Shown: in pieces, positions 669-23,658 of the stretch | How the letters are laid out: the number at the start of each line of letters is the position of its first letter | Numbering within the stretch: position 1 is the stretch's first letter | From: Aigarchaeota archaeon | GTDB taxonomy: Archaea; Thermoproteota; Nitrososphaeria_A; Caldarchaeales; Wolframiiraptoraceae | Length of the DNA stretch: 32,351 nt | Reading direction: 5' to 3' | Assembly: GCA_025058515.1 (NCBI GenBank) | Contig: JANXDW010000024.1 | Coordinates: 1 to 32,351, forward strand | Notes under the pieces: model-generated | What the model was told of the DNA's origin: nothing | What the model saw: the letters and a program-made list of their open reading frames with translations, nothing else | The model's database searches: none | Made by a program: the position numbers and the translations under genes

Positions 669-1418
669 GTGATGATGTCTAATGATAAGTTTACTGAAGA
701 TATCTTAAAGATTGTTGAGAAAGCTGTATCTATCTATGGGGTCGACATACGTAATAAGCTATCTAGATTATCCAGTAAGCTGATAGAACTCCATAGAATG
801 AATAGAGTTAAGATAAATCATTCAATTATGGAGATTGTTATGGGTGCCTACTTTATAGATAGAGGGTATGAAGTAGACGTAGAAGCAGATGTTGGAGATA
901 AGCTTATAGCTGATGTAGTAGCATATGATGATAAAGAAAAGATATTGGTAGAGATAGAGACAGGGTTTACTTCACCTGAGAATGCGCTAGATCCTCAGAG
1001 CTACTTGATGGCGAGGATTGTAAGTAAGCTGGCAAGATATAGTAAGCACTCAGATATATTCTCATTTGCAACACCACTTCATAATGTTCTCCAGATCCCT
1101 CGAGTATACTTAAAACCATCTAAAGAGAGAAGAAGAGAAGAGATGATGATCCTTAAAGATCTCTGTGATAGATACTATTCTCAACCACCTATAACTATAG
1201 AGGATATTGCTAGACCGAAGATCGACTCTATATATTTAATAAATGTAGATACATTAAGAGTGAAGAAGCAGTCGCTTAAGCAGTACATGAAAACAACTAT
1301 AGGTAAGTATATGCCGAAGACTATTGAAGTAGAAAAATACGTAGGGTGGAGCCAACATTCGGAGCAAGTGAGAACAAGAAGTGCACAACCCTACAACTCC
1401 CAAGCTGTGCACCCTTAA
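669..1418 (+). CDS. PD-(D/E)XK-like (restriction-endonuclease-fold) protein of unknown function
   Basis: 249-aa ORF with E (SIMEIV) ... D (LIADVVAY) ... E-x-E (ILVEIETG), in the order expected for a PD-(D/E)XK core. Start codon is ambiguous (GTG 669, ATG 672 or 675). The last ~24 codons lie inside the palindromic element at 1348-1555. Confidence 0.6.
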   Translation: MMMSNDKFTEDILKIVEKAVSIYGVDIRNKLSRLSSKLIELHRMNRVKINHSIMEIVMGAYFIDRGYEVDVEADVGDKLIADVVAYDDKEKILVEIETGFTSPENALDPQSYLMARIVSKLARYSKHSDIFSFATPLHNVLQIPRVYLKPSKERRREEMMILKDLCDRYYSQPPITIEDIARPKIDSIYLINVDTLRVKKQSLKQYMKTTIGKYMPKTIEVEKYVGWSQHSEQVRTRSAQPYNSQAVHP

Positions 1419-1555
1419 TTCTCATCACCATCCATCCCGGTTACCGTTCTTCACGGGTTGTAGGGATGAAATGGTGATATACTGTAAGTATCCATGTTGA
1501 GGCTTCCCCCAACACGGTTCCTTACAGTATACTTGTTCCTCTCCCTGTTGGCTCC
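1348..1555 (+). ncRNA. Candidate structured RNA (four-way junction); MITE-like palindromic element is the alternative, strand uncertain
   Basis: Closing helix GGAGCCAACA(1348-1357)/TGTTGGCTCC(1546-1555), GGAG(1361-1364)/CTCC(1541-1544), GAACAAG(1372-1378)/CTTGTTC(1532-1538). Hairpin A GTGCACA(1381-1387)/TGTGCAC(1406-1412). Hairpin B ATCACCAT(1424-1431)/ATGGTGAT(1471-1478) plus CATCCC(1433-1438)/GGGATG(1463-1468). Hairpin C ATACTGTAAG(1479-1488)/CTTACAGTAT(1521-1530). Followed by AATTTTTGATATTTTTG. Confidence 0.55.
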
Positions 1556-1789
1556 AATTTTTGATATTTTTGAATAGAGATAGATAAAGTTTTCTATTTT
1601 TCTAGTTTGCCGGTAATACCGTGAAGATCTTAAAGTATTTTTCATAGAAGATTTTCATTCTCTTCATCATTTTACGTTTTCTATCTTTCTAAATTTTTCT
1701 CTTCAGAAATTTATTTTAGTATTAAGTTATTCAAGAAAAAATTGTAATCTGATGATAGGCTTTCAGTCTGCATTATGAGAAGAAAACTT

Positions 1790-23565: not shown

Positions 23566-23658
23566 GCGGCCGTCGTCTAGTCTGGAAGGACACTGGCCTT
23601 CCGCAGTCAATCTTCTGGAGAAAGCCAGTGGTCGCGGGTTCAAATCCCGCCGGCCGCA
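23566..23658 (+). tRNA. tRNA-Gly (anticodon TCC at 23600-23602) with canonical 37/38 intron of about 19 nt (~23604-23622)
   Basis: Acceptor GCGGCCG/CGGCCGC plus A73; D stem GTCT/GGAC; anticodon stem CTGGC/GCCAG with loop CTTCCG^intron^A; variable TGGTC; T arm GCGGG-TTCAAAT-CCCGC. A UUCC/GGAG central helix flanked by GCA and AAA bulges resembles a BHB. Confidence 0.93.

Follow-up and report, generated by a model that had tools for sequence, protein, structure and literature searches.

We identified, at positions 1348 to 1555 of the window (the whole 32,351-nt stretch of DNA that was analysed), a gene for a structured non-coding RNA, and both the gene and its structure are near certain. Comparison with related genomes showed that it is present in single copy, that its structure and strand are conserved, that a promoter-like box precedes it, and how it is distributed in its family. 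It encodes a new type of structured RNA, autonomous and deeply conserved among thermophilic archaea, that most likely serves as a ribonucleoprotein (RNP) scaffold. We assign a probability of about 0.68 to the reading that the RNA is transcribed autonomously from the minus strand and has a trans-acting scaffold role. According to this reading, a stable RNA of ~210 to 225 nt would be transcribed from its own archaeal promoter, end at a T-tract, and fold into a four-way junction that is closed by helix P1 and locked by a pseudoknot between the P4 internal loop and the P5 apical loop. It would act in trans as an RNP scaffold, for which the purine loop between P1 and P2 (GGnAnA/GAA) and the tip of P3 (GGGGRAGCCUC) are putative protein-docking sites. 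The novelty refers to the class of RNA; to our knowledge, archaea have few known large, deeply conserved single-copy structured RNAs other than rRNA, RNase P RNA, SRP RNA, and guide RNAs.

The initial annotation had described, on the plus strand, a closing helix (1348-1357 paired with 1546-1555) enclosing three hairpins, A to C, and had proposed checks by z-scores against shuffled sequences, covariation among homologues, Rfam, and BLASTN. All helices described there were recovered at their positions, including the end of hairpin B at 1478 and the start of hairpin C at 1479. The z-scores were significant for both strands, with a folding energy of -88.0 kcal/mol and a z-score of -8.65 for the plus strand and of -108.0 kcal/mol and -12.00 for the minus strand. 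As none of 200 shuffled sequences was equally stable in either case, the structure lies far beyond chance. The assignment to the plus strand did not hold. The minus strand folds better by 20 kcal/mol in the window and also folds better in every congener checked. When an alignment of 21 sequences was read on the minus strand, 105 cells contained G-U but only 14 contained A-C, which indicates that the minus strand rather than its complement is the RNA. In this orientation the RNA forms a four-way junction of P2, P3, P4, and P5 with P1 as the closing helix (Table 1), and the P4 internal loop and the P5 apical loop form a pseudoknot between hairpins B and A that the initial annotation had missed.

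Table 1. Features of the RNA gene and its surroundings in the window
Feature	Position	Strand	Basis or remarks
Protein gene, unnamed archaeal family, ~235 aa, likely start at 678	669..1418	+	Stop codon falls within the RNA gene, which is on the opposite strand
T-tract TTTTT, likely transcription terminator	1333..1337	-	11 nt past P1′
Structured ncRNA gene, P1 to P1′	1348..1555, read 1555 to 1348	-	R3 match, E 2.1e-29 (sequence was in R3 training)
P1 3′ strand UGUUGGCUCC	1348..1357	-	Fold and covariation
P1/P2 internal loop, 3′ side, conserved, GAA	1358..1360	-	G246 and A247 100% across clades
P2 3′ strand CUUGCUCC	1361..1368	-	Fold and covariation
P5 hairpin (hairpin A of the initial annotation)	1369..1423	-	Fold and covariation
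Pseudoknot strand 2 GUUGUAGGG, P5 apical loop; core GUUGUA 1397-1392	1389..1397	-	Complementarity test
P4 hairpin (hairpin B)	1424..1478	-	Compensatory changes in each of the 10 lower pairs
Pseudoknot strand 1 CCCUACAAC, P4 internal loop; core UACAAC 1462-1457	1457..1465	-	Complementarity test
P3 hairpin (hairpin C)	1479..1531	-	Fold and covariation
P3 tip GGGGGAAGCCUC, best-conserved hairpin motif in the family	1499..1510	-	Wolframiiraptoraceae, Calditenuis, f17; variant in Nitrosocaldaceae
P2 5′ strand GGAACAAG, pairs with 1368-1361	1532..1539	-	Fold and covariation
P1/P2 internal loop, 5′ side, conserved; window GGGAGA, consensus GGnAnA	1540..1545	-	A16 100% across clades
P1 5′ strand GGAGCCAACA, pairs with 1357-1348	1546..1555	-	99.2% of cells paired; compensatory changes in all 8 modelled pairs
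BRE/TATA-like box GAAAACTTTATC	1583..1594	-	TATA part 1588-1583, 33 nt upstream of P1

Covariation was assessed at an earlier stage with 21 sequences and then with 33 aligned RNAs of 178 to 225 nt. In the latter set, 91.0% of the cells were standard pairs, compared to 63.7% after shuffling of the 3′ letters, and compensatory changes were found in 54 of the 57 pairs, counts that lean towards the modelled structure because the model itself produced the alignments (A7 and A9) and fitted them to it. The covariation score was 0.744 versus 0.230 for shuffled and 0.08 to 0.13 for slid partners. The test of the pseudoknot is free of this bias; the P4-P5 pairing was left out of all covariance models. 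The two loops are complementary in each RNA, with UACAAC/GUUGUA in the window and GUGAGC/GCUCAC, CGGGC/GCCCG, CUCCG/CGGAG, GACCC/GGGUC, GGGGG/CCCCC, and GCGUGG/CCACGC in other clades; between clades the sequence is wholly replaced while complementarity is kept. Own partners scored 15.9, compared to 10.0 (sd 0.68) for partners permuted among nine clades, and none of 5,000 permutations reached 15.9. The RNA of the held-out genome G589 has a perfect 7-bp pseudoknot (AAGGAGU/ACUCCUU). The preservation of fold and pseudoknot at a mean identity of only 35 to 60% between clades indicates strong selection on the RNA.

Two sites of the RNA are near constant across clades, the asymmetric P1/P2 purine loop, in which GGnAnA faces GAA, and the P3 tip; in the other loops the sequence turns over. 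Since outside these two sites the sequence mostly turns over and the shape is kept, an antisense or guide function was rejected. The constancy of the two sites suggests that they may be protein or RNA contacts on a scaffold, and on such comparative grounds we infer that the RNA probably acts in trans and binds protein. Kink-turns, which are bound by L7Ae/15.5K proteins, have a 3-nt bulge followed by G1b-A2b opposite G2n-A1n. The P1/P2 loop resembles this motif in that the invariant A16 lies opposite the invariant G246 and A247 (A2b, G2n, and A1n, respectively), but position 15, corresponding to 1b, varies among A, G, C, and U, and additional nucleotides are present in the loop. As 1b is not a conserved G, the loop departs from the consensus, and we did not classify it as a canonical kink-turn.

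The best BRE/TATA-like match starts at -26 to -36 relative to P1 in 30 of the 34 loci (median 30), a spacing that is kept although the upstream sequences of the clades are otherwise dissimilar. This constant spacing supports a promoter of its own, from which the RNA is probably transcribed separately. Most loci have four or more consecutive T residues within the 40 nt downstream, but none of those of Nitrosocaldus does. The sequence AATTTTTGATATTTTTG, previously interpreted as a 3′ T-tract terminator, in fact precedes the minus-strand RNA and falls within its promoter region.

The window derives from a hot-spring archaeon of the Wolframiiraptoraceae, a family of the order Caldarchaeales (Aigarchaeota) described before (PMC9246946). 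A BLASTN search, in agreement with the single-copy status, returned as the only other match in the 1.47-Mb assembly the inverted repeat of the RNA's own P3 hairpin, and it revealed homologues with 74 to 77% identity in congeners. The same locus was found in Candidatus Geocrenenecus arthurdayi and dongiae. With the covariance model R1 the RNA was detected in 19 of 22 Wolframiiraptoraceae genomes, and R1 also matched loci of Calditenuaceae (L064-L066, L068, L071) and Nitrosocaldus (L108, L157). A wider model, R2, added the genomes G040 and G028 (loci L163 and L164) and G060 (L170); G028 is tied to Ca. Calditenuis fumarioli by L079/L156, and the RNA at L163 and L164 adjoins a gene that, judged by eye, is xanthine-dehydrogenase-like. 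A third model, R3, detected the RNA in all seven Nitrosocaldaceae genomes, three of which were outside the training set. One of these three, G589, belongs to the second genus of the family and matched with an E value of 3.9e-15, at a locus apart from the protein gene described below. The families f2 (Calditenuaceae) and f41 (Nitrosocaldaceae) were assigned by matching loci to named records. One further Thermoproteota genome beyond these three families carries the RNA, giving at least 34 genomes of thermophilic archaea in total.

All other genomes searched gave no match at E ≤ 0.001 (~1,280 genome searches, some genomes repeated), and the models found no RNA in G003, G006, G018, and G022; the search filters drop weak matches, as when R1 missed the plainly homologous locus L118, so that these results do not prove absence. 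Nearly all genomes compared are MAGs. A weak R3 match (E 0.026) was seen in G036 (L171:1501-1670, minus strand). At locus L044 of G020 the RNA has an altered P3, a P2 of GAAG/CUUC, and an intact, compensated pseudoknot, and the protein gene is not beside it. Contig C26 of G016 (L052/L031) carries either a second copy of the RNA together with a degenerate protein gene containing internal stops, or it is the contig of a second strain.

No Rfam 15 family matched at the gathering score, and laxer thresholds gave chance-level matches or none in three clades. Searches of the open-access PMC literature, a scope outside which most subscription papers and preprints lie, also returned no description of the RNA. 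The RNA resembles archaeal RNase P RNA (RF00373) in being a stable structured archaeal RNA gene of 200 to 300 nt and archaeal SRP RNA (RF01857) in being single-copy, structured, and of housekeeping type. Both assignments were rejected; the element matched neither family, and the true genes lie on contigs C51 (173 bits) and C42 (153.8 bits), respectively. These results, together with the strong covariation, bear out the proposal of the initial annotation that the element is an undescribed structured non-coding RNA. OLE, GOLLD, and ROOL are trans-acting structured RNAs of bacteria known from comparative genomics. Our RNA is similar to them in that it was recognised by covariation, likely acts in trans, and has neighbours that suggest no evident function, but it is archaeal, ~210 nt long, and has its own architecture and no Rfam match. 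A riboswitch or other 5′ UTR element was discarded, as the RNA is read towards convergent genes and into their 3′ ends, or sits downstream of a gene; no conserved gene downstream of the RNA was seen at the loci compared.

The protein encoded next to the RNA, whose gene served as a guide for locating RNA loci in the family, showed only weak matches in Pfam, NCBIfam, PADLOC, and PDB sequences and has no Pfam or NCBIfam name, and no relatives were found in viral contigs. Its AlphaFold model (mean pLDDT 86.8) gave weak best Foldseek matches, mostly to PD-(D/E)XK nucleases, and a PD-(D/E)XK-like fold is therefore predicted; D79, E92, and E94 are conserved in the family (alignment A10). In the Wolframiiraptoraceae and Calditenuaceae the two genes lie tail-to-tail on opposite strands, and in Nitrosocaldus the RNA follows the protein gene on the same strand. 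Downstream of the protein gene of another Thermoproteota MAG (L129:4710-4856), on the same strand, we observed a distinct and highly stable extended hairpin of 147 nt (-96 kcal/mol) that matched none of the RNA models.

The strong linkage of the two genes could reflect a paired or a cis function instead of a scaffold role. For the former, RNA and protein would form one two-part system, either with the RNA controlling the protein or as an RNA-protein nuclease complex, that is, an undescribed archaeal RNP of a pseudoknotted four-way-junction RNA and a PD-(D/E)XK-like protein that would provide thermophilic Thermoproteota with an RNA-dependent nuclease system. We regard this as doubtful, and the protein as no more than a possible partner. 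All 18 Wolframiiraptoraceae genomes with the protein have the same RNA fold tail-to-tail behind its gene, adjacency recurs in the f2 g6 genomes and, in the other orientation, in Nitrosocaldus, and G016 has a second copy of both with the protein broken. Among 44 genomes of the order, 25 contain both, 4 only the protein, 1 only the RNA, and 14 neither (Fisher p 3.5e-7, kinship of the genomes ignored), an association that is inflated because adjacent genes vanish together when an incomplete MAG misses one contig. However, the RNA lies away from the protein gene at L163, L164, L170, L175, and L044, which rules out obligate pairing, and the protein family is present in 184 of 401 Thermoproteota genomes, mostly without detectable RNA. 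The varying orientations and unlinked loci argue that the RNA does not depend on a particular neighbour.

It appears distinctly improbable that the RNA acts in cis on the neighbouring gene, as an antisense element or as a terminator, with minus-strand transcription running into the 3′ end of that gene. The RNA overlaps the stop codon by 25 to 71 nt in three genera and is convergent with a different gene in Calditenuis, but in other genera the RNA and the protein gene are mostly separated by 6 to 65 nt, so that the overlap is not essential. The structure is kept across these gaps, across the flipped orientation in Nitrosocaldus, and beside other neighbours, and a terminator needs neither a four-way junction nor a pseudoknot. 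The cis-acting mRNA 3′ structure considered in the initial annotation fails on the same variation in strand and neighbours and on the RNA's own TATA-like box. Catalysis by the RNA is still less probable: its compact multi-helix fold with a pseudoknot and the small number of invariant nucleotides in its loops would suit a ribozyme, but no Rfam ribozyme family matches, and outside the two constant sites invariant nucleotides are few. A MITE or other mobile inverted-repeat element, the alternative put forward initially, could account for the inverted-repeat ends and the folding of both strands. Both the single-copy occurrence and the covariation refute it for practical purposes: the genome holds no second element, the position is conserved across the genomes of the family, the pairs carry compensatory changes, and the promoter-like box is conserved.

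The preferred reading of an autonomous scaffold RNA concerns a gene that spans the Caldarchaeales and the Nitrosocaldaceae, and its predicted transcript, defined structure, and covariance model can now be tested in Wolframiiraptor and Nitrosocaldus, in culture or enrichment. Elsewhere in the window, on the plus strand, positions 1816-2300 contain two overlapping small genes, each encoding a lone Lrp/AsnC ligand-binding domain without the DNA-binding part, and positions 23566-23658 contain a tRNA gene of 93 nt that probably has an intron and for which ARAGORN gives no anticodon.
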